Position numbers and translations under genes: made by a program. From Bacteroidota bacterium (lineage in GTDB: Bacteria > Bacteroidota > Bacteroidia > Bacteroidales > TTA-H9), in the NCBI GenBank assembly GCA_003250395.1, contig QKGM01000007.1, forward strand, positions 62,001-126,000: a stretch of DNA of 64,000 bases, written 5' to 3'. Each line of letters starts with the position of its first letter. Position 1 is the first letter of the stretch. Below the pieces are notes generated by a model. It was not told where the DNA came from, did no database searches, and saw only the letters and a program-made list of their open reading frames with translations. Shown in pieces: positions 16,646-27,386 of the stretch.

Positions 16646-17266
16646 TTATTTAATGAAGGATAACCCTTCTTTAGCAGATTTATCGTCGGGTTTCACCATC
16701 AGGGCATTGTTGAACAGTACACGTGCTTCACGGTATTTTCCTAGTTTCAAGCAGGTCCAGCCATACATGAGGTTCGCATCATAATCAAAGGGGTAGTAGT
16801 TAGCGACTTTCTCGAAATATCTTATCGCAGTGGCGAATTGCTCCCGTCCATAATAAATCAGACCTAAGCGATAATTTGCAATACTATGTCCGGGATCAAT
16901 CTTAAGGATTTCGAGATAGGCATTTTTTACCTGTTCCCAGTTGCCTAATGCTGAAGCAGGATATACAAGCCCGAGTCTTGCTTCGATTGATTGCGGCATT
17001 AATCGGATTGCTTTCTGGTAATATGCCAATCCATCGGTAAACCTACCCGAGAGGTAATAAAGCCATCCAAGCCTGATGTTTATGGCATAAGATTTTTCAT
17101 TGTATACTTTTTTAAGTGCATCTATCGCCCGATCATATTCCCCGGCATTCTCTTTTGTATAGCTTTGGCTGAATGCTTGTTCCAGGGTGCTTGAATTCTG
17201 GGAATAGGCCGCTTGCATATTTGCAAGCAGAACTGCCAGGACCAGTATTTTTTTTAAAAATTCCAT
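16646..17266 (-). CDS. Secreted tetratricopeptide-repeat protein
   Basis: The 206-residue protein has a signal peptide (about 1-22, ending AAYSQ) and four to five TPR units across residues 30-205. Examples are NIRLGWLYYLSGRFTDGLAY, SIEARLGLVYPASALGNWEQ and IANYRLGLIYYGREQFATAI. It is probably a periplasmic protein-interaction module. Its start overlaps the end of the upstream TPR/beta-barrel gene by 13 bases, so the two are translationally coupled. It is the last gene of the operon starting with the sensor kinase at 23798. Confidence 0.8.
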   Translation of the reverse strand: MEFLKKILVLAVLLANMQAAYSQNSSTLEQAFSQSYTKENAGEYDRAIDALKKVYNEKSYAINIRLGWLYYLSGRFTDGLAYYQKAIRLMPQSIEARLGLVYPASALGNWEQVKNAYLEILKIDPGHSIANYRLGLIYYGREQFATAIRYFEKVANYYPFDYDANLMYGWTCLKLGKYREARVLFNNALMVKPDDKSAKEGLSFIK

Positions 17267-18597
17267 TTTATTCCTCCAAGAAGTGTGTGTTTTTGATAAT
17301 TTACTGTTTCGGAAATCATAGTATTATTACTCAGGTCATAATGCCAGATTTGCCCTTCAGCCTGGTTATAGATGTATCGGAAGGAAAACATTACATTTTC
17401 GAAAGCAGGAATATAAATTACACCTTGTGCTCTTAATGTTGTTTTATCATCTGTATTCAACGAAAGAAAGTTATTCTCATCAACATAACGCGTAAGATCG
17501 CCGATTGCAACAGAAGTTTCCGCCCATACGTGAGAAGAAATCCTAAAACCTGCCGAGGGTTCAGTGATCCATCGATGCTGATCATCTTCTGAGAGAACGG
17601 TTGCATGTATTTTGAGCCAATAGTTTAAGTTCCCTGATGGAAACCATGTTATCGCTGCACCACCACCTACCTGTGTTTTGTCGAGGAGGGTCGCATAGTT
17701 ACCGTGCAGTGCAAGGTTGAACAGGTCAAAATCAGCATACAGGGCAATTCCGGTGGCAATATCCTTGTTTGAATATGATTTACCTCGGAAATAGTAAGCA
17801 GCCGAGTCTTGATTATATATTGCTGTTATAGGCCTGGAGCGGTTGTAAATAAAGTGAAAAGATGGTATGATCCTTAATCCGGGGAGCGGTTCGATGGACA
17901 GATTGAGGTATCCTTCATGTTGGTTAAAGCTATAGCTTCGTCTTATTGTATCCAGGCTTCCCAGTTCGATTCGTTGGTATCGGTCAAGTGAAAGGTTTGA
18001 ATATCCCACATAGGCAGTAATATAAGATCCCAGTTCAAATCCTCCGCCTGCATGAAAGTAAAAAGCGTTACCCGGAAGATTAAATTCACCATATATACTG
18101 TCTGAGCCACTGATATAAGAATCCCTCAGCGGGTCTATAGCGTTGGAATAGAGAGGCCCTAATTCAGTATAAACATAAGAAGGCCTGACAGGATTTTTAA
18201 GTTGAAGCCGAAGCCTTGCAGCTTCTGAAAAGCCAGAGGTGATTGAACGTGCACCTCCTGATCGACCAGAGTATAACAATGAATAATACAGGTACTCACG
18301 CGAAAATTCATCTCCCTGATTTAAATGAAGAGCCTTACCAAAGTATCTGGACGCTTTACGATAATTATTTTTCGCAAACCAGGCAGCACCTATCCTTGCA
18401 TTCAGATATTGATAATCATTTCCGGAAGCCATAGCCTGTTGGCCGACAATGATAAGTGAATCCCATTGCTTTTGCTGATAAAGCCTCCATGTTGTCTGGT
18501 CATATTCCCTGAAACCTGGAGAATTTTGAGAGAAAGCTATTCCCTTTGAAAAGAGTATTAACAAAACACTAAACAGAGCAATTATTCTATTTACCAT
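17254..18597 (-). CDS. Outer-membrane beta-barrel-like protein with N-terminal TPR region
   Basis: From the ATG at 18597 the product is 447 residues with a signal peptide (ending GIAFSQ). An upstream ATG at 18615 would overlap the preceding stop and lengthen the N-terminus. Residues about 30-130 look like TPR helices (ARIGAAWFAKNNYRKASRYF). From about 150 on, alternating aromatic and polar beta strands with YG/GYSN turns dominate (AYVGYSNLSLDRYQR, LSIEPLPGLRIIPSFHFIYN), and the chain ends HTLLGGIKWNF. A terminal Phe is usual for outer-membrane barrels. Function unknown. The position between the UT-M23 fusion and a TPR protein suggests an envelope complex, by inference only. Confidence 0.65.
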   Translation of the reverse strand: MVNRIIALFSVLLILFSKGIAFSQNSPGFREYDQTTWRLYQQKQWDSLIIVGQQAMASGNDYQYLNARIGAAWFAKNNYRKASRYFGKALHLNQGDEFSREYLYYSLLYSGRSGGARSITSGFSEAARLRLQLKNPVRPSYVYTELGPLYSNAIDPLRDSYISGSDSIYGEFNLPGNAFYFHAGGGFELGSYITAYVGYSNLSLDRYQRIELGSLDTIRRSYSFNQHEGYLNLSIEPLPGLRIIPSFHFIYNRSRPITAIYNQDSAAYYFRGKSYSNKDIATGIALYADFDLFNLALHGNYATLLDKTQVGGGAAITWFPSGNLNYWLKIHATVLSEDDQHRWITEPSAGFRISSHVWAETSVAIGDLTRYVDENNFLSLNTDDKTTLRAQGVIYIPAFENVMFSFRYIYNQAEGQIWHYDLSNNTMISETVNYQKHTLLGGIKWNF

Positions 18598-18607
18598 AAT
18601 CTTTGTT

Positions 18608-20833
18608 TTAGTCATGTATGTATTCGACTTCAATAGAACGGTTGTTCTTAACAATGACAAATTTGCTTATCAGATTGTTGTGCAGTTGCCACCTGAAGTC
18701 AATTATACTGGTAGTTTTTCCAAATATCTTCATAGAAGCACTCGAATCAAGGTAAACATATGAATCAGAGAATTGATCATCCATTTTCCTATAAAGCATT
18801 TTGAAACTACTATTCATGAAAATGCAGAAGGGGGAAATGAAATCCTGCATAAATAACCAACGGCGATCTGAAATGATGTGAAGTGGGTATTGATCCTCAA
18901 CCACCATTCCTTTATAAAATCCATTGATGATTTTATAGGCGCCAAGGTAAAAGTAATAAAGTAACGAACGTTTATCGCCTTCAAAGTGGGTAAACCACAT
19001 CACTTTACCATCATTTTTATACCAGGCACTGGCTTTTCCAGTTTCTGACCATAAGTATGTATTGTTGTAACTATCTGACTTTACCTCCCATACAATTTCT
19101 TTTGTGGAGTTATCATCATTTTTTACTTTAAATTTCAATAGCTGACCCGGAATAAATCTAAAGGCAGATGCAATGGCTTCATTGGGTTGAATGTTTGAAA
19201 TGACTTCATCCTGTAACGGAATCCCTGTCTGAACATATTCAAAACCCGATTTATTATGTCTGATATAAGATGATAAAGCACAAGGAAGAGTATAACTCCC
19301 GATATAAGGAAACTCCTGAACCTGAAAGTGAAGGTGTGGGCGTGGAGAACGACCACTGCTTCCCGCAAGGGCGATTACCTCCCCCCGTTGTACCCATTGT
19401 CCTTTGATAACTTTAAATGAGTCTTTTTTTAGATGGCTCATTTTAGTGTAGAAATGCTCAGAATGTCTTATGATGATTGTATTGCCCCAGTTATGCGTCA
19501 GATCCATATCGCCGACAGGAGAGTCGTTGATGCCATTAAGAATCTCTTCCACATATCCATCAGCCGGGGCAGTAACAGGTTTTGCATAACAATAATAATC
19601 TTCAGGCCGTGTTCCTTCATTCCTGTATAAATCACCATCTTCATCTCTGATTTCAAAATCCCAGGCTTCACGCCATTTTTCGCGATGGGTAAACTCACCA
19701 TTATGTCCTTGTGTTACTGTCCATTCTCCCCAGATTGGTAACGAAAGGGGGATAAGGGGAGGGGTCCCGAATCGTTGATGGTAATTGTGCTGGGCATATA
19801 GGTTTCTTTCTGGGGAAAAGAGCTGGTAATACACCAAAAGAGGTTTTTCGGTAAACCTCTCCCTGAATTTTAAGAAATAAAGAAAAAGTAATACTACTAC
19901 ATTGAAAGGGAGGGAATAGGCTGGTAGTTGCTGTGAATCAAGAACAGCGCCTGAAGCAACTATTATGACAGTAATAATTGGGGTTAACAGGAATAACCAG
20001 AGCAATGTATAACGGGAAGCGACCAGAAAAAAGCCTCCGATTGCAATCGCTGTCAGTATGTAGTTAAATCCAATATATCCATAGCTAAGTTCATTGATGT
20101 CGGCACCTAATAAACCGTAAAGAGCGTATGCCGAATAGAACCCGATCAGGCTGTAGAGGAAAGCGATACGTGAATAGATTAGGAGCCCAATTGAAACTAA
20201 TATCCCTGCAACCAGATGATACTGGAAGAAGACAGCCGCCAGTGATTTGAAATAGGTGGAAAGTGAGACTGGTAACCAGGGTTCGCTGAGAAAAGAATAG
20301 GTTTGAACAAGAGGATCTCCACCAAGTAAAAACATTTCGTTATAAGTATATATACCACGCGTACTGAATTCAAGCGCAGAGAACTCTCTGGTCGCCAAGG
20401 TAAAAAGCCAGATAACAATTAGAAAAGGTATGCTTAAAAATGGGAGTCCGTATTTACCAATTATACCCTCAAGGGCTTGGGTAAAAATAAGTGAGGATAA
20501 TGCCGAGAAGATTAGGATGATAAAGTATGCTAATCCGGGTTCAAAGCTAACGCCCAATCCTAAACCCACCAGAAGACTGTTAAACCCGTATGCACCAAGA
20601 GCAATGTTTTTACGGCTGAGACCGCCTATGTATGCAAAAATGTTGGTTGTTATTACAGTAATTACTCCACTAAGACCTGCCCAAAAGTCAAAGAAAGAAA
20701 CGGCCATAAGCATCAGTGCAAAAATGCGGTTATTTGAAAAAAAAACCTGGCTGTAGGAATTGAGCAGACTCCCTGTGAAGTCCGGGAATATACGATTGAG
20801 CTTGTTTAGTAAGTGCTGGTTTTCCATTTTCAT
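18608..20833 (-). CDS. Urea-transporter-like membrane domain fused to an M23 metallopeptidase
   Basis: The 741-residue protein has two parts. Residues about 30-325 are polytopic and carry urea-transporter features: a GAYGFNSLLVGLGLG motif, a second GFNYILTAIAIGG in the other half, and LPFLSIPF followed later by SLPFNVVV, recalling the LPxxTxPF urea-channel signature. Residues about 365-520 are an M23/LytM domain: GHNGEFTHREKWREAWDF gives His383 and Asp392 at the spacing of one M23 subgroup, and RPHLHFQV gives His500 and His502, so the zinc site appears intact. A beta-rich C-terminus of about 200 residues is unassigned. The gene begins in an ATGA overlap with the aminotransferase gene. Likely inner membrane, with the peptidase domain probably periplasmic. 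Confidence 0.8.
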   Translation of the reverse strand: MKMENQHLLNKLNRIFPDFTGSLLNSYSQVFFSNNRIFALMLMAVSFFDFWAGLSGVITVITTNIFAYIGGLSRKNIALGAYGFNSLLVGLGLGVSFEPGLAYFIILIFSALSSLIFTQALEGIIGKYGLPFLSIPFLIVIWLFTLATREFSALEFSTRGIYTYNEMFLLGGDPLVQTYSFLSEPWLPVSLSTYFKSLAAVFFQYHLVAGILVSIGLLIYSRIAFLYSLIGFYSAYALYGLLGADINELSYGYIGFNYILTAIAIGGFFLVASRYTLLWLFLLTPIITVIIVASGAVLDSQQLPAYSLPFNVVVLLFLYFLKFRERFTEKPLLVYYQLFSPERNLYAQHNYHQRFGTPPLIPLSLPIWGEWTVTQGHNGEFTHREKWREAWDFEIRDEDGDLYRNEGTRPEDYYCYAKPVTAPADGYVEEILNGINDSPVGDMDLTHNWGNTIIIRHSEHFYTKMSHLKKDSFKVIKGQWVQRGEVIALAGSSGRSPRPHLHFQVQEFPYIGSYTLPCALSSYIRHNKSGFEYVQTGIPLQDEVISNIQPNEAIASAFRFIPGQLLKFKVKNDDNSTKEIVWEVKSDSYNNTYLWSETGKASAWYKNDGKVMWFTHFEGDKRSLLYYFYLGAYKIINGFYKGMVVEDQYPLHIISDRRWLFMQDFISPFCIFMNSSFKMLYRKMDDQFSDSYVYLDSSASMKIFGKTTSIIDFRWQLHNNLISKFVIVKNNRSIEVEYIHD

Positions 20834-21993
20834 TCAGGAAAGCTGTGAGAGGATTCTTGTCCGTTAAGGAACCTTGAAAGGCAGAGAACAGCAGCTTTGA
20901 TGTCAGCGATAGGCTTTGCGGCATTAAACCTGATCATGCTATTAAATTGAGTCCCGAAATGGATTCCGGGCACAGTCGCCAGATTTTCTTTTTTATACAG
21001 ATCAAGCACGAATTGTCCTGAATCAGAGAATCCCTCAGGGATATTGGCCCAGACAAAATAGCCGCCACCTGCAGGAATTACATGGAACCCCATCTTTGTA
21101 ACAGATTCTGCCAATAGGGTGTATGAATTTTTTATGGATTTTCGGAGGTTTTCAATAAACACCCTAACATCCTGCTGGTCTTCCAGGTAATTTGAGATAG
21201 CAGCTTGTAAGAGGTGGGGTGCAGAAAGCCCGCTGAAATCGTGTAACAGACATATCTCTTTCATCTCAGCTGCTGTGGAAGTCAACCATCCTATACGCCA
21301 CCCGGTAACTGATAGGAATTTTGAAAAAGAGCTAACTACATAGACTTTATCTTGAATCACTGGTTGAGGGAAAACAGCTGGCTGATCAAACCATAATTCA
21401 CTATACACCATATCAAAGATAATTTTTGCATTGGTGGTTCTTGTAAGCTCACAAAACTGTTCGGTTTCATATTTTGTCAGTACTCTTCCCCAGGGATTAC
21501 CGGGAGAGCCGATAAGTATTAGATCGATATCTTGAATTTGAATTGCTGTTTTGAGATAGTCAAAGTCAATTGATCCATCAGCCTGCCAGGATAGTGCAAC
21601 AAAATTATGACCCAAAAGGGAAGGAAGGTTGACATAGCTTTCGTAGCTTGGCCCAAATGCAGCCACAGTGAACTTCTTCTTCTTCTTTCGGGCCAGATGC
21701 TGATAGATAAGATGGATCGCTTCGGTAGCACCACAGGTAATTAGAAGATTCTCATTAGCAGCCGATGATGGAAGCCCCATGTAATCAGAAATCTTAGTCA
21801 GAAGAGATGGAAAGCCTTTTGTAGGAGCATATTGATGATGAGTGCTTTCTATTTCACTGGCAAGAGAATTAAGAAGACCCCGGGGAGGATTAAACCCGGG
21901 AAGTCCCTGTGCAAGGTTGATTCCTCCATATGTTTTTACTTTGTTACTCATATGGCTTATCCAGGAGCCAATCATTTTGGGATCTTCGTACAT
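20830..21993 (-). CDS. PLP-dependent class I/II aminotransferase
   Basis: This 387-residue fold-type I enzyme shows NLAQGLPGFNPP at the N-terminus (typical of the methionine/kynurenine aminotransferase branch), ITCGATEAIHLIYQ for PLP-phosphate contacts, IGSPGNPWGRVL with the PLP-ring Asn, IIFDMVYSELWF, and SSFSKFLSVTGWRIGW with the Schiff-base Lys225. The conserved carboxylate-binding Arg is expected in SMIRFNAAKP. The substrate cannot be fixed; methionine or glutamine keto-acid transamination is the nearest family role. It starts six bases after the sensor kinase stop and ends in an ATGA overlap with the UT-M23 fusion, so it is in the middle of an operon. Confidence 0.88.
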   Translation of the reverse strand: MYEDPKMIGSWISHMSNKVKTYGGINLAQGLPGFNPPRGLLNSLASEIESTHHQYAPTKGFPSLLTKISDYMGLPSSAANENLLITCGATEAIHLIYQHLARKKKKKFTVAAFGPSYESYVNLPSLLGHNFVALSWQADGSIDFDYLKTAIQIQDIDLILIGSPGNPWGRVLTKYETEQFCELTRTTNAKIIFDMVYSELWFDQPAVFPQPVIQDKVYVVSSFSKFLSVTGWRIGWLTSTAAEMKEICLLHDFSGLSAPHLLQAAISNYLEDQQDVRVFIENLRKSIKNSYTLLAESVTKMGFHVIPAGGGYFVWANIPEGFSDSGQFVLDLYKKENLATVPGIHFGTQFNSMIRFNAAKPIADIKAAVLCLSRFLNGQESSHSFPE

Positions 21994-21998
21994 GATAA

Positions 21999-23798
21999 TT
22001 AAATTTTGAATAAAGGAAGTGTAAAAGTAAAAGTGCTTCCTTTATCGGGTTCACTTTTAACACTGATAGTTCCTCCATTTCTTTCGATGAAATCATGAAC
22101 AAGTATTAACCCTAAACCTGTTCCAGGTTCTCCTGCTGTTCCTTTTGATGAATGACTTATCTCAATTCTCCATAAGCTGGCACAAGTTTCCTTGTCCATC
22201 CCTACTCCTGTATCTGTAATGGATATTTGCGCAAAGTCGGCTGTCCTGGTTGATTTAACAGCGATAGAATGACCAGGATATGAGAATTTAATAGCGTTAC
22301 TAAGCAGATTCCTAACAATAGCAGAAGTCATTTGGTAATCAGACCAAACGAACAATGCCGGAGCCATATCTTTTTCAATGGTTATTTGCTTGGACCCAAG
22401 CATAAGGTCAAGTTGTCCTGTTACTTCATCAATCAATCGGTTCAGGTTGAGTTTCTCCGGCTGGTAGCTGACTCTTCCAGTCTGCATTCGGGTCCATTCC
22501 AGCAGGTTGTTGACCAATTGATATCCCTGGCGACTGGAGTCATAAATCAGTTGATGGAATTTACGCGCTTTTTCAGGAGGCATTGCATCAAAATCTTCAG
22601 TCAGCACCTCAGCCAGGCCTACTAATCCGTGAAATGGATTACGCAGATCGTGGGCAATAATGCTAAAAAACTTATCTTTAGAGAGATTGAGTTCCTGTAA
22701 TTGTTTTTCAGATTCAGCCAGTTTCCAGTTTTTTTCTTTTAATTGCCTGAAAGTTGATATGGAGAACAAGATGAATGTGAAAACAAGAGCTATAAGTAAG
22801 GTAGAAATAATCAGAATTATAAATGTGTCTTTAAGGTAGTCGCTAAGGGTGGCATCAGAGGAGTAGCTGATAATGTATGCAACAGTATTTTTATCAGGTC
22901 CTGCTACTGGGAAAAATAAACCAGTATAACTATTGCCAGTACTTGTTTTTGCATTTAGTCCGAATGGAAGGTTTTTTATCAATCCTTTTTCGATTTCACG
23001 TTTGTTGATTTTGTTAAACAGAACGATTTCCGATTGGGCAATATATTGTTTCATACCGGGACGGTTCAAATCACGGTCGCTCTTTTCATAAAAGTAATCT
23101 ACACTCAGGTCACTGAACGTATAACCAGTTAACATTGGATATGGAGTTGTCTGTAGTACACTTTCCTTGTTTATAAGGAAGACATATTCATAAGGGAAAA
23201 TTTTCTTCATTTCTTGCTGTAGCGCTACGTTATCAATGGAAAGTATTACAAATCCTCTAACGCTTTGTTTATTCCCGGCTGGTAATGCAATGCAATACCC
23301 GGCAGCTGTCCCACCGGCGTAAAAACCAGTTATATTGTTACCCGACCAATCAACAGAATCAAGTAATGAATTAAGGGTTGTAATAGTGTCGCCAAAATAA
23401 CCAGGATTATGCATACGAAGCATCACCTCCCTTTGGCTATTGATGATTGTAAAACCCTTAAATCCCCGATGTAATAGTTTAGAATAAATATCACCTAATA
23501 GTTTTTGGGCAACAAGTTTTCCTGAATCCGGTTGAACAGTTAGTAATAAAATTGCTGAATCACAGGTCTTTGTGTTGGCATTAGGGGCTATCTCTGAGAG
23601 CATTGCCATAGCAACTTCTTCGAAATGATGAAGCGTGGCTGTTAATCCGATCTCAAATTCCCGGGTGTTTTTTTTGATATATACCTGATGATTTTTTTGA
23701 TAATTCTGCCATATAATCCAGGCGCTGAAGCTTTCTGTAATTAAAAAAAGCAAAATAAGAAGATGAGGCAGTTTCTTGATGTGGAGTCGGTTTTCCAT
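21999..23798 (-). CDS. Membrane sensor histidine kinase with large periplasmic sensor
   Basis: The 599-residue protein has a membrane segment at about 13-30, an extracytoplasmic region of about 300 residues (Cache/PAS-like), a second segment at about 331-353 and a short coiled linker. A HisKA domain follows with IIAHDLRNPFHG, the phosphoacceptor being His383. The HATPase domain shows NLLSNAIKF, DTGVGMD and GTGLGLILVHD. The HDLRNP variant H-box is usual for HPK-type kinases of this phylum. No receiver or output gene is adjacent, so the partner is unknown. It is the first gene of the operon and a TACTTTTG box lies 23 bases upstream. Confidence 0.9.
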   Translation of the reverse strand: MENRLHIKKLPHLLILLFLITESFSAWIIWQNYQKNHQVYIKKNTREFEIGLTATLHHFEEVAMAMLSEIAPNANTKTCDSAILLLTVQPDSGKLVAQKLLGDIYSKLLHRGFKGFTIINSQREVMLRMHNPGYFGDTITTLNSLLDSVDWSGNNITGFYAGGTAAGYCIALPAGNKQSVRGFVILSIDNVALQQEMKKIFPYEYVFLINKESVLQTTPYPMLTGYTFSDLSVDYFYEKSDRDLNRPGMKQYIAQSEIVLFNKINKREIEKGLIKNLPFGLNAKTSTGNSYTGLFFPVAGPDKNTVAYIISYSSDATLSDYLKDTFIILIISTLLIALVFTFILFSISTFRQLKEKNWKLAESEKQLQELNLSKDKFFSIIAHDLRNPFHGLVGLAEVLTEDFDAMPPEKARKFHQLIYDSSRQGYQLVNNLLEWTRMQTGRVSYQPEKLNLNRLIDEVTGQLDLMLGSKQITIEKDMAPALFVWSDYQMTSAIVRNLLSNAIKFSYPGHSIAVKSTRTADFAQISITDTGVGMDKETCASLWRIEISHSSKGTAGEPGTGLGLILVHDFIERNGGTISVKSEPDKGSTFTFTLPLFKI

Positions 23799-23919: not shown

Positions 23920-25278
23920 TTAAAGTTCAAAATGATCAAGATGATTAGGTATTCGCTCCTGTCCATTCACTGAATTAAGATTTTCCTTTTCTCTTATAAT
24001 ATGAGGGTTACCGTCATTATCGATCATAACCACAGCGGGTCTGAGGGTAATAAATTGCATCCACTGGGTCATGTTATATGCACCGACCGAATGCACTACA
24101 ATATTATCGCCTTTATTGAGAAGAGGAAGACTTACAGATTCCCGTAATACATCAATATTCATACAAAGAGGTCCATTGAGCGTGGTGTCTTCTGTGTATT
24201 GAGTAAATTCCTGTGCTGGAGTTACTTTGTGATCGTACCAGAAGGAGGTAAACATCAGGTTAACCCCAATATCAACTATTGTAATCCGTTTCCCTTTAGA
24301 TGATCGCTTGTTTGAAATGACAGTCCCTAAAATATATCCTGCATCATCTACAAGAGCTCTTCCTGTCTCAAGTACCAATGTTGGTAAGAATTCGGACGAG
24401 AAATCGGCATTGAGTAGTGCCGTTGTAATTGCTTCGGCGTAATCATCAAACGAAGGGTTCGTATCGGTACCAGGAAGGTAGGCTCCTTTGAGGGTGTTTC
24501 GTGAAGTGAATCCCCCACCCATGTCGATGTACTTAATTGTATGGTTGAACTTTCGTTGTACACCTATTGCCAGTTCAGCCAGTTTACCTGCTGCTACAGC
24601 ATATGCCTGAGCTGATAACATAAAAGTTCCGATATGACAATGCAGCCCTACAAGTTCCAGTCTTCCTGAATGTAGGATTTTATTTAACGCATCCCAGGCC
24701 TGACCGTTTTCATAATTAAAACCAAATCGATCCCACATTGGGTAAACGCCTGTATCCATGTTTACCCTGATCGCAACCCGAGGTTTGGTATTATGTCGTT
24801 CAGCAAGCTCAGTTAAAGTGTAGAGTTCCTCAAGATGATCGATGTGAATCAAGGCATTGTGTTGAATAGCCATTTCCAAATCCTCTTCTGATTTGTCGGG
24901 ACCGTTAAAAATTATCTTACTCCCTTTGACACCATTCCCTAGAGCCTTCTGAAATTCAAACCCTGATACAACTTCAGCCCAACTGCCTTCCTGATGAAAT
25001 ACATTGCAAACTGCGCTGATATAATTAGTTTTATATGACCAGGCGAACTGCACTTTAGGGTATCGTGTAGTGAAGGCTTTTCTGGCTTTCCTGTACTGAC
25101 TTCTGAGTACTTTTTCGGAAATAACAAAAAGCGGAGAGCCAAATTTATCGATGAGTGATTTTACTGGTACTCCATCAATTTGTGTTGTAGGACGGTAATC
25201 GGTTCTCATCCCAAACTTATTTGGCATCTCGCTGTCGAGTCGCCTGATTATAGGTCGTTCGTATCTTAATTTCTCCAT
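23920..25278 (-). CDS. DapDC-like PLP-dependent decarboxylase (fold type III)
   Basis: The 452-residue protein belongs to the Orn/Lys/Arg/DAP decarboxylase group with an alanine-racemase barrel. WSYKTNYISAV places the PLP Lys at residue 83. Other marks are GLHCHIGTF, the phosphate loop IDMGGGFTSRN, VLETGRALV, and the cross-subunit GPLCMNIDVL in the C-terminal beta domain, matching the GPxCxxxD motif of DapDC. Family members include diaminopimelate decarboxylase, carboxynorspermidine decarboxylase and BtrK, which decarboxylates glutamate on a carrier protein. A general LysA role is less likely given the neighbours: it follows an ATP-grasp gene by 11 bases and a PqqD-like gene. The substrate is unknown. 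Confidence 0.85.
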   Translation of the reverse strand: MEKLRYERPIIRRLDSEMPNKFGMRTDYRPTTQIDGVPVKSLIDKFGSPLFVISEKVLRSQYRKARKAFTTRYPKVQFAWSYKTNYISAVCNVFHQEGSWAEVVSGFEFQKALGNGVKGSKIIFNGPDKSEEDLEMAIQHNALIHIDHLEELYTLTELAERHNTKPRVAIRVNMDTGVYPMWDRFGFNYENGQAWDALNKILHSGRLELVGLHCHIGTFMLSAQAYAVAAGKLAELAIGVQRKFNHTIKYIDMGGGFTSRNTLKGAYLPGTDTNPSFDDYAEAITTALLNADFSSEFLPTLVLETGRALVDDAGYILGTVISNKRSSKGKRITIVDIGVNLMFTSFWYDHKVTPAQEFTQYTEDTTLNGPLCMNIDVLRESVSLPLLNKGDNIVVHSVGAYNMTQWMQFITLRPAVVMIDNDGNPHIIREKENLNSVNGQERIPNHLDHFEL

Positions 25279-25289
25279 GGTTATGGGGT

Positions 25290-26336
25290 TTATAATTCTC
25301 CTGTTGTACTAATTTTTTGAAATTCAGATATGTCTACTATCATATCCCAGGCATATCTGATAAACATTTTTCCTATACTGTATGTAGTAAAAGGCGTTAC
25401 CTTATCGCCCAAAGCCATTTGGACAAGGGCTTCAGGGATATTCTGACCAACACCAACGGCGAGGTAAATCCATGCAGGCATTCTTGGGTTAATCTCCAGT
25501 AAGTTAAATTCATTGTTTTTATCTTTCATGAGTTCTAGTTCAAATCCTCCGCGCCACTTGGTCGAACTGACAAAATGATAGGTAAGATCGAGCATTGTCT
25601 GATCAGCTATACTTATTCCTCCCCAGGCTTTTCCTTTGTCGGTAATATATTGTTTACGCATAGGAACAGCTGCAATGGTATTTCCTTTTCCATCGCCCAG
25701 TCCAGTAATATTGAATTCTGTCCCTGAAATGAATTCCTGAATAATTATAGGTAACCCCCACTTGTTGCTTATTTTTTTGTAGAGACTTTTCACCTGATCT
25801 ATATTAGAAGCAACGCCAGCATCATAGAATTTCCCTTTTACCACAACTGGCATCTCGAATTCTTTTTGCAAATCATAAATCTCCGATATCTCGAAGATCG
25901 CTTTACTTTTAGGTACTCTAATGCCATATTTTTGTCCGAAATCAAATAGATTTATCTTTTGCCGCTCTTCCAATTGCGTCATTGTTGGTAAAAAAACGTT
26001 AATTCCCATTGCCTTAAGATCATCCTCTATTTTAATATATGAATAGAGTTCTGCATCAAAATTTGGAATTATCACATCAAGATGCTCCTTATGGTGTATG
26101 TACTCCAACCGACTAAGCAAATTGTCCACACCTGCTGATGGATACGGTACCTGATAAGTTTTAGAGACCAAATTGTGCATATAAATCCCTGGTTCCAGAG
26201 ATTCGTATGCTAATCCGATAATGTTGGTGTCAAATGATTTAGCTTCTAAGAGTCCTCTTATAACAGCGACACCTGGTCCAGGACTGTCAATGGCATTTAG
26301 CCCGGTTACTGCTATGTTAAGCTTCTTCCTGATCAT
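25290..26336 (-). CDS. ATP-grasp ligase of the carbamoyl-phosphate-synthase-like group
   Basis: The 348-residue protein has an N-terminal Rossmann-like domain beginning KLNIAVTGLNAIDSPGPGVA. The ATP-grasp core follows: MPVVVKGKFYDAGVASN for ATP-lysine contacts, PIIIQEFISGTEFNITGLGD, GGFELELMKDKNNEFNLLEI with the metal-binding Glu, and NPRMPAWIYLAVGVGQN. The INPRMP segment is the usual Mg-binding Asn loop. Such enzymes join a carboxylate to an amine through an acyl phosphate. The acceptor here is unknown. Its start overlaps the PqqD-like gene by 20 bases and the decarboxylase follows 11 bases later, implying a shared pathway. Confidence 0.85.
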   Translation of the reverse strand: MIRKKLNIAVTGLNAIDSPGPGVAVIRGLLEAKSFDTNIIGLAYESLEPGIYMHNLVSKTYQVPYPSAGVDNLLSRLEYIHHKEHLDVIIPNFDAELYSYIKIEDDLKAMGINVFLPTMTQLEERQKINLFDFGQKYGIRVPKSKAIFEISEIYDLQKEFEMPVVVKGKFYDAGVASNIDQVKSLYKKISNKWGLPIIIQEFISGTEFNITGLGDGKGNTIAAVPMRKQYITDKGKAWGGISIADQTMLDLTYHFVSSTKWRGGFELELMKDKNNEFNLLEINPRMPAWIYLAVGVGQNIPEALVQMALGDKVTPFTTYSIGKMFIRYAWDMIVDISEFQKISTTGEL

Positions 26337-26577
26337 GATGTTGGCTCAGATGGTGATTGTCAAGCATTCCTGTGAAATCAGTCAGGTCTTTATCAAATGT
26401 TTGTGGATCGATTTGATACTTTTTGCATATGGTTTCTATAATCTGTGCAGATTCTAAGCCGTCATTGATCATCTGTATTATTTCAAAACCAATCGGGTTA
26501 ACAGTGAACGATTCTCCTGTAATTGGATTAAACATGAATCCTGATTCGCTGATAGCGATACTTTTTTTAATTCTCAT
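26317..26577 (-). CDS. PqqD-like small protein
   Basis: This 86-residue protein follows the PqqD pattern. N-terminal beta strands (MRIKKSIAISESGFMFNPIT, then GESFTVNPIGFEII) lead into winged-helix-like helices QMINDGLESAQIIETICKKY and FDKDLTDFTGMLDNHHL. PqqD domains bind leader peptides of RiPP precursors or occur in other small-molecule clusters. The tail SQHHDQEEA is acidic and is encoded within the overlap with the ATP-grasp gene. No radical SAM protein or obvious precursor peptide is beside it. It lies 11 bases after the T9SS gene on the same strand. Confidence 0.8.
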   Translation of the reverse strand: MRIKKSIAISESGFMFNPITGESFTVNPIGFEIIQMINDGLESAQIIETICKKYQIDPQTFDKDLTDFTGMLDNHHLSQHHDQEEA

Positions 26578-26588
26578 ATAAGGTGAAG

Positions 26589-27386
26589 TTATTGCGTAAC
26601 AACTATTTGTTGGCTAGATCCGTGAAAACCTGGTGCTTCAATTTTCCAGAAATAAATACCAGGGGTAAGGTCTTTGGTGTCAAGTATCAGGCTGTCGAAA
26701 TTGCTGTCAATAGTATATTTTTTTATGATAAGCCCGGAAATATTTATTACAGATAATTCTGCCTGTCTGAGCCCTTCCGGGAGCGTGTAGTCGATCTTAA
26801 GGTTTCCTTTTACAGGATTGGGAAAAGCTTTCATTCCAATAGTTTCCGTGACATTGGTTGACTCCGAGGTCAATGATCCACCTAATGTGAACACTTTTGT
26901 CGAAACCGTATATGGTGTTACGGCATAATTGTAAATGTAACTGAAAAGTCTGGTCCCTGACCCAACGACATTGGTAATCCAATTATAACCGGCTCCTGGT
27001 AATGTTAGGAGTATAGTGCCAGTTTCGCTTGCGACCCGTGTTTCATATGTATAATAATCAAGAGTACTATTGTAATTATAACAGACGTATAACATTTCAA
27101 TTGAATTATCCATATTGAAAAGATGATCGGTTACATATTGGATGTCGTAAAGGTAATAATTTGAGGGAATGCTGAGGTTAACACTTTTCCAAAGTGAATG
27201 ATCTAGGTTATATAGTAGGCATTGACTATTGGGTACATCCATTACATAGTATTTGTCTCCATATGTCTCCGTATGAGCAATGCCAGCCGATACACCAGAA
27301 TAGGTGTGTTCTAAAGAGATCTGAGCAACACTAATTTGCGATGTAGCGATCAGCATAAAGATGAGAAGGGAGGTAAGAGTTTTCAT
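26589..27386 (-). CDS. T9SS-secreted protein with type A sorting domain
   Basis: The 265-residue protein has a signal peptide (about 1-21, ending SVAQ) and a central region of about 160 residues rich in Tyr, Asn and Thr that looks like beta repeats. The C-terminal type IX sorting domain runs from about 188 (AFPNPVKGNLKIDY) through LSVINISGLIIKKY and LTPGIYFWKIEA to the end. It should cross the outer membrane by T9SS and be released or lipid-anchored. The middle has no family that can be recognised. It is the first gene of the transcript that continues into pqqD-like, ATP-grasp and decarboxylase genes. Confidence 0.85.
   Translation of the reverse strand: MKTLTSLLIFMLIATSQISVAQISLEHTYSGVSAGIAHTETYGDKYYVMDVPNSQCLLYNLDHSLWKSVNLSIPSNYYLYDIQYVTDHLFNMDNSIEMLYVCYNYNSTLDYYTYETRVASETGTILLTLPGAGYNWITNVVGSGTRLFSYIYNYAVTPYTVSTKVFTLGGSLTSESTNVTETIGMKAFPNPVKGNLKIDYTLPEGLRQAELSVINISGLIIKKYTIDSNFDSLILDTKDLTPGIYFWKIEAPGFHGSSQQIVVTQ

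Follow-up and report, generated by a model that had tools for sequence, protein, structure and literature searches.

A leader-like tail on a PLP decarboxylase as the predicted ligand of a PqqD-type recognition protein in a conserved Bacteroidota operon

Introduction

PqqD proteins, which act as recognition elements (RREs) for ribosomally synthesised and post-translationally modified peptides (RiPPs), serve as markers of RiPP clusters. What does such a protein recognise in an operon with no obvious precursor peptide? The question is raised by a locus within a 64,000-nucleotide stretch of DNA (the window; contig QKGM01000007.1, positions 62,001–126,000) from a bacterium of the order Bacteroidales, phylum Bacteroidota, whose genome assembly is 2.98 Mb long and 76% complete. 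Four minus-strand genes lie at 23920–27386 of the window with intergenic gaps of 11, −20 and 11 bases, exactly as given in a preliminary description of the sequence. Pfam and NCBIfam concur on their types: a type IX secretion system (T9SS) sorting domain, a PqqD protein, an ATP-grasp ligase and a pyridoxal phosphate (PLP) decarboxylase. The analysis below points to the N-terminal tail of the decarboxylase as the ligand of PqqD.

Results

A recognition protein resembling lasso RREs and a leader-like enzyme tail

The pqqD gene (26317..26577, minus strand; PF05402, 38.7 bits) encodes a discrete RRE of 86 residues whose nearest solved relatives are the lasso peptide RREs TbiB1, TfuB1 and PbaB1, together with LppB. 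A gapless alignment of its profile with LppB (9x8z) places positions 27, 64 and 68 on LppB N33, D70 and F74, and the protein thereby combines the PqqD fold with the Asn/Asp/Phe set of the leader groove (N27, 26497-26499; D64, 26386-26388; F68, 26374-26376; all on the minus strand). N27 is kept in 176/176 orthologs. In the LppB crystal complex, D70 and leader Tyr-16 are joined by a hydrogen bond, the kink at the leader Pro is held by N33, and F74 forms part of the pocket lining (PMC13381572); discrete lasso RREs recognise [YW]xxPx[LVIFA] in their leaders (PMC12710340, PMC13381572).

The decarboxylase (23920..25278, minus strand; 452 residues) begins with a tail of 23 residues (25210..25278, minus strand) that carries YERPII at 25246-25263 and Lys21 at 25216-25218. 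The tail consensus among orthologs is K-x-x-[YF]-E-[RK]-P-x-[ILV]-x9-K-[FY]-G, and 177 of 179 have exactly nine residues between the two halves of the motif. Pro9 and Lys21 are invariant (183/183) and the Glu and Gly are present in 98%, while the linker that follows is variable. Eight LysA-type relatives (loci L167-L174; here L denotes loci and G genomes) lack the extension. This consensus equals the motif recognised by discrete lasso RREs, and we call the tail leader-like.

Could the motif instead belong to a separate precursor? No small open reading frame (ORF) starting with [YF]xxPx[hydrophobic] recurs in loci of at least 9 kb. A scan of six genomes for the YExPxI DNA pattern found it no more often than a reversed control; among the hits inspected there, decarboxylases are the only clear genes with the pattern near their start. 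One candidate, a 77-residue product in G299, proved to be an out-of-frame ORF overlapping another gene and was discarded. The preliminary description had remarked on the lack of an obvious precursor, and these searches found no separate one; the lack is only apparent, however, as the leader motif is fused to the decarboxylase. Of the usual attributes of a RiPP cluster, the operon thus has the RRE and a fused leader motif, the binding being inferred from the covariation and modelling described below, but no separate precursor in the loci and genomes probed. That the true precursor is encoded elsewhere or has escaped detection, shares the leader motif and leaves the decarboxylase tail only to compete or regulate in a RiPP pathway seems to us quite improbable: PqqD, ligase, peptidase and exporter make up a usual RiPP set and small precursors are easily overlooked, but the searches above yielded none and PqqD and the tail vary together.

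Covariation between PqqD and the tail

The joint variation was analysed by mean-field direct-coupling analysis (DCA) of 176 matched gene sets (effective number 113). The top three of about 22,000 PqqD-decarboxylase column pairs all fall in the tail, which accounts for 30 of the 293 decarboxylase columns: PqqD64 with tail residue 6 at 9.7 standard deviations (sd), PqqD53 with residue 4 at 7.4 sd and PqqD24 with residue 13 at 6.8 sd. Their order is the same under three further settings. Tail Tyr6 is paired with Asp or Asn at PqqD64 in 143 of 144 cases, and Phe6 with Tyr, Ser, Ala or His in all 32. Lys at tail residue 4 occurs mostly with an acidic PqqD53, and Leu, Gln or Ile mostly with a basic one. 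On a tree built without the tested columns, this charge swap, scored as a basic tail residue 4 against a basic PqqD53, gave 18 independent pairs, 11.5 of them compensating and none against (median p 0.0005), for a residue pair picked after the DCA ranking. Tyr/Phe6 changed five times on the tree, in nearly every case concordantly, although supported branches supply only two independent pairs. All three couplings vanish when PqqD is shuffled within nine broad clades (maximum 5.9 sd). Since PqqD64 corresponds to LppB D70, the strongest covarying pair is a known RRE-leader contact; PqqD24 sits on the leader-pairing strand.

Predicted ordering of the tail by PqqD

AlphaFold2 (AF2) was applied to locus L230, where the three genes lie in one frame and, with stops read as Gly, give a single chain of 894 residues. 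The model of this three-protein chain (predicted local distance difference test score, pLDDT, 84.9; predicted template modelling score, pTM, 0.50) places a strand at 453-456, which corresponds to decarboxylase 11-14, and shows no segment below pLDDT 50 within 445-456 (decarboxylase 3-14, KLSYERPVIKKV). When PqqD was removed and the same loci were kept as rows, the whole tail (354-384) fell below pLDDT 50 and no strand formed before the tail end. Because the tail orders only with PqqD in the chain, we infer that PqqD is the partner that orders it.

Covariation and model together favour the recognition role that had been proposed for PqqD, and its predicted binding of the decarboxylase tail in the manner of a lasso leader is well supported by computation. 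PqqD resembles the lasso RREs and the LppB-LppA pair in fold, in the Asn/Asp/Phe groove, in a [YW]xxPx[LVIFA]-type ligand and in covariation that agrees with their crystal contact. It differs in that the ligand is an enzyme N-terminus rather than a precursor peptide. A lasso peptide cluster was rejected, as the B2 protease and asparagine-synthetase-like cyclase are not among the conserved operon genes. The same holds for the PQQ pathway, which the preliminary description had already set aside: neither the PqqA precursor nor the radical SAM enzyme PqqE is among those genes. PqqD as a LysW-like carrier was ruled out as well, its C-terminus being variable and lacking a conserved attachment residue.

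The decarboxylase belongs with enzymes acting on acylated or tethered amino acids

The best solved relative of the decarboxylase is the N-citrylornithine decarboxylase 7kh2 (sequence match 1e-58; Foldseek rank 1). PLP lysine Lys83 and catalytic Cys372 are present in 176/176 orthologs, as in PLP decarboxylases of the alanine racemase fold. Could it nevertheless be a divergent LysA with incidental neighbours? It scores 239.5 bits against TIGR01048 (lysA), it is the closest LysA-like protein in its own incomplete genome, and no LysA above cut-off was found in a number of other genomes, some of them near-complete, G134, G168 and G196 included. The score, however, lies under the curated cut-off of 297.9, and the 236.6 bits against NF041039 (FslC) likewise lie under a cut-off of 500. 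At the position of Arg343 of diaminopimelate decarboxylase (DAPDC) the family has Thr344 (174/176), and the acidic neighbour of the catalytic Cys gives way to Met373 (176/176), in agreement with FigC and not with LysA. FigC itself has Thr/Tyr for the Arg, and Met355 in place of the acidic residue that in DAPDC binds the side-chain amine of the substrate (PMC7857480). A true LysA stands alongside the cassette decarboxylase in G002, G007, G024, G062, G080, G089, G119, G132, G195, G212, G234 and G291. With linkage and tail both conserved in addition, a LysA identity is very improbable and was rejected; the possibility that this is the only LysA of the genome, with its meso-diaminopimelate site intact, fails at both binding positions and in the near-complete genomes that carry a separate LysA.

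Thr344 and Met373 are most naturally read as fitting an amino-acid substrate whose side-chain amine is blocked by acylation or tethering. The citrate-contacting His357 of FigC corresponds to Ile375 in 176/176 orthologs, so the enzyme lacks this mark of an N-citrylornithine decarboxylase and the acyl group would differ from citrate. The enzyme thus shares its best sequence and fold match, the Met next to Cys and the Thr for Arg343 with the FigC/FslC clade (SbnH, AcsE, MccE, BtrK), but has in addition the RRE-binding tail and, in place of a siderophore (NIS) synthetase, an ATP-grasp partner. BtrK and MccE are members of the FigC clade (PMC7857480).

The comparison with BtrK made in the preliminary description therefore holds in that the decarboxylase falls among enzymes that remove the carboxylate from amino acids linked to a larger moiety. 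As in the butirosin pair BtrJ/BtrK, an ATP-grasp ligase is coupled to a decarboxylase of the alanine racemase fold, but the conserved operon offers PqqD and a tail instead of an acyl carrier protein. No small gene other than pqqD is conserved, and a BtrJ/BtrK carrier-protein pathway was rejected on this ground. The separate small protein on which the decarboxylated adduct had been supposed to be built was likewise not found, leaving that part of the proposal unsupported.

A conserved six-gene operon

The ATP-grasp gene (25290..26336, minus strand; 348 residues; PF15632 and PRK12767-type matches) overlaps pqqD by 20 bases. Its product is of the PRK12767 / Ter-operon type, with E268, E281 and N283 invariant in the ortholog alignment; solved relatives gave only general ATP-grasp matches, chiefly to carbamoyl phosphate synthetase-like proteins, which were uninformative as to its substrate. 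Of 295 genomes in the order, 122 have a single-copy ortholog (>50% identity, fragments counted). PqqD adjoins it in 30/30 of the first-fetched order loci and the decarboxylase is adjacent in 27/30, two of the three others ending at a contig end. Outside the order, decarboxylase orthologs with 47-67% identity occur in 33 Bacteroidota genomes, beyond which similarity falls to about 30%, to LysA-type genes. In 29/29 phylum-wide loci inspected the ATP-grasp gene precedes the decarboxylase and a fusion of a urea transporter (UT) channel to an M23 metallopeptidase follows it, with PqqD visible in the short flank of 28. Among GTDB representatives 554 ATP-grasp relatives were found, and the 80 kept are from uncultured, mostly Bacteroidales or Bacteroidetes, genomes. 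Plasmid and viral contig searches matched no relatives.

The order conserved over 94 wide loci is pqqD, ATP-grasp, decarboxylase, UT/M23, a barrel-like protein of 453 residues and a tetratricopeptide repeat (TPR) protein, found in 73, 94, 91, 90, 73 and 74 loci respectively; the pqqD count is an underestimate, as ORF picking misses some overlapping pqqD genes. ATP-grasp and UT-M23 are jointly present in 116 and jointly absent in 168 of the 295 genomes, while 6 and 5 genomes have one without the other (p 2e-67 by Fisher's test, phylogeny not corrected). Because the order is kept across the loci of both order and phylum, the grouping is not chance, and the earlier supposition that a conserved pqqD/ATP-grasp/decarboxylase order would mark a system is borne out. 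The interval first given, correct in its genes, is too short: the conserved operon reaches 16646. In the open-access literature, searches for PqqD with ATP-grasp and decarboxylase, and for urea transporter with M23, found neither a description of the operon nor an RRE binding an enzyme tail. It appears to be an undescribed six-gene system that hundreds of Bacteroidota genomes share, and it is spread widely among environmental members of the phylum.

In G268 (99% complete; L045 7841-11078) an AraC regulator, the ATP-grasp and a T9SS protein are kept and the cassette-type decarboxylase and UT-M23 are absent; this locus is a decayed or divergent form of the cassette. A second ATP-grasp paralog in G065 (31% identical; L204 5656-6708) lies beside a TPR protein, with neither pqqD nor decarboxylase.

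The channel-peptidase fusion and the putative export proteins

The UT-M23 fusion (18608..20833, minus strand; 741 residues) matches PF03253 with 202 bits and PF01551 with 61 bits. Its UT part retains the QxxF site of dvUT and has Ala at Glu187 and Ser at the LP-box Thr; with Glu187 replaced, urea itself may not be cargo. The M23 zinc ligands and catalytic His (H383, D392, H467, H500, H502) are complete in 83/83. The topology of UT proteins, together with a positive-inside charge pattern, predicts that the M23 domain lies, unusually, on the cytosolic side. The protein has the fold of dvUT and the site of M23 endopeptidases, but differs from both in the fusion and in the predicted placement of the peptidase. 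In L179 the UT and M23 halves seem to be encoded by two distinct ORFs that overlap, the M23 one lacking a signal peptide.

Downstream lie a protein of 453 residues (17254..18615, minus strand) with an N-terminal TPR, matched weakly, and a probable outer-membrane beta-barrel assigned from sequence character, and a secreted TPR protein of 206 residues (16646..17266, minus strand; PF07719), the final gene of the conserved operon.

Optional neighbours and lineage-specific inserts

The T9SS sorting-signal protein (26589..27386, minus strand; 265 residues; PF18962), which had been grouped with the operon, is merely an optional neighbour: its family occurs in 12 of the 94 loci, in one of them with the gene placed between those for the ATP-grasp and the decarboxylase, and a role as substrate or core component was ruled out on that count. 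Other proteins stand upstream of pqqD elsewhere (L039, L088, L102, L182, L183, L185), among them one of 1260 residues in L039 and ones of 278-280 residues in L182, L183 and L185; the C-termini of these proteins resemble secretion sorting domains. An AraC-type regulator lies near the operon in 37 of the 94 loci, mostly just upstream. Its N-terminal part (L045 7841-8446, L049 10590-11255) has a Cys-x-x-Cys-like motif resembling heavy-metal-associated domains, which suggests metal or redox control of the operon.

Between the decarboxylase and UT-M23 genes the window carries a lineage-specific insert (20830-23798) of a sensor histidine kinase (21999..23798, minus strand; PF00512, PF02518) and a class I/II aminotransferase (20830..21993, minus strand; PF00155), also found in L033 and L127.

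Discussion

The reading that we favour, and consider somewhat more probable than its negation, is a conserved biosynthetic and export pathway in which PqqD, docked on the tail, holds the decarboxylase at the ATP-grasp enzyme. PqqD would grip the tail as an RRE and so bring the decarboxylase to the ligase. Because pqqD and the ATP-grasp gene overlap and share the same profile, the ATP-grasp probably works with PqqD and the decarboxylase; it may acylate an amino acid by forming an amide between a carboxylate and the side-chain amine, after which the decarboxylase would strip the alpha-carboxylate from the acylated amino acid, in the manner of FslC/FigC, SbnH, AcsE, MccE and BtrK. A small neutral product could then leave by the UT-type channel, with the cytosolic M23 domain trimming or releasing it, and cross the outer membrane via the TPR and barrel proteins.

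Several observations count against this reading. DCA did not find strong coupling between the ATP-grasp and the tail, the strongest pairs reaching 4.8 sd or less. When PqqD is shuffled within 39 fine clades, the Tyr6-64 signal persists (6.9-8.3 sd), PqqD53-tail4 and PqqD24-tail13 drop out and chance pairs reach 7.0 sd; the Tyr6-64 signal is therefore partly clade-level, and weight rests on the structural match. The AF2 chain is artificial, with PqqD in 8 of 38 rows and a tail pLDDT of about 60, and the contrast was read without coordinates, so that strand pairing with the tail is not visible in it. The Ile for citrate-contacting His357, the Ala at UT Glu187 and the ATP-grasp of G268 that lacks a decarboxylase belong here as well, as do some distant members in which another barrel-like protein stands in place of the 453-residue family.

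Alternatively, the decarboxylase may be its own carrier. The tail would then be a fused RiPP-like leader and core, PqqD would present Lys21 (in NKFG) to the ATP-grasp for loading with an amino acid or acyl group, the decarboxylase domain would take a carboxylate off the tethered group, and release of that group would fall to the M23 domain. We consider this unlikely, though well short of negligible, and slightly less likely still in the form in which Lys21 is loaded with an amino acid and the M23-channel fusion both releases and exports the product. Lys21 is one of only two invariant tail residues, at a fixed spacing from the RRE motif and amid variable neighbours, and the M23 domain keeps a complete active site and is predicted to face the cytosol. 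The substrate of BtrK is tethered to a protein and that of MccE is a RiPP, both enzymes of the FigC clade, and borosins, whose core is fused to its modifying enzyme, provide a precedent. Lys21 and the KFG around it may, however, merely be a second docking contact, and the weak coupling between ATP-grasp and tail tells against loading too. If true, the pathway would amount to an assembly line whose swinging arm is RiPP-like and fused to one of its enzymes.

Under the docking reading that we prefer, an RRE has very probably been recruited to another role, holding together two pathway enzymes through a leader-like tail. Enzyme-fused cores and decarboxylases of tethered groups have precedents in the borosins and in BtrK and MccE; what would be new is an RRE bound to the tail of an enzyme. 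Such docking would account for one or more groups of RRE genes seemingly without a precursor, and the operon points to a small exported metabolite or a modified protein not previously known.

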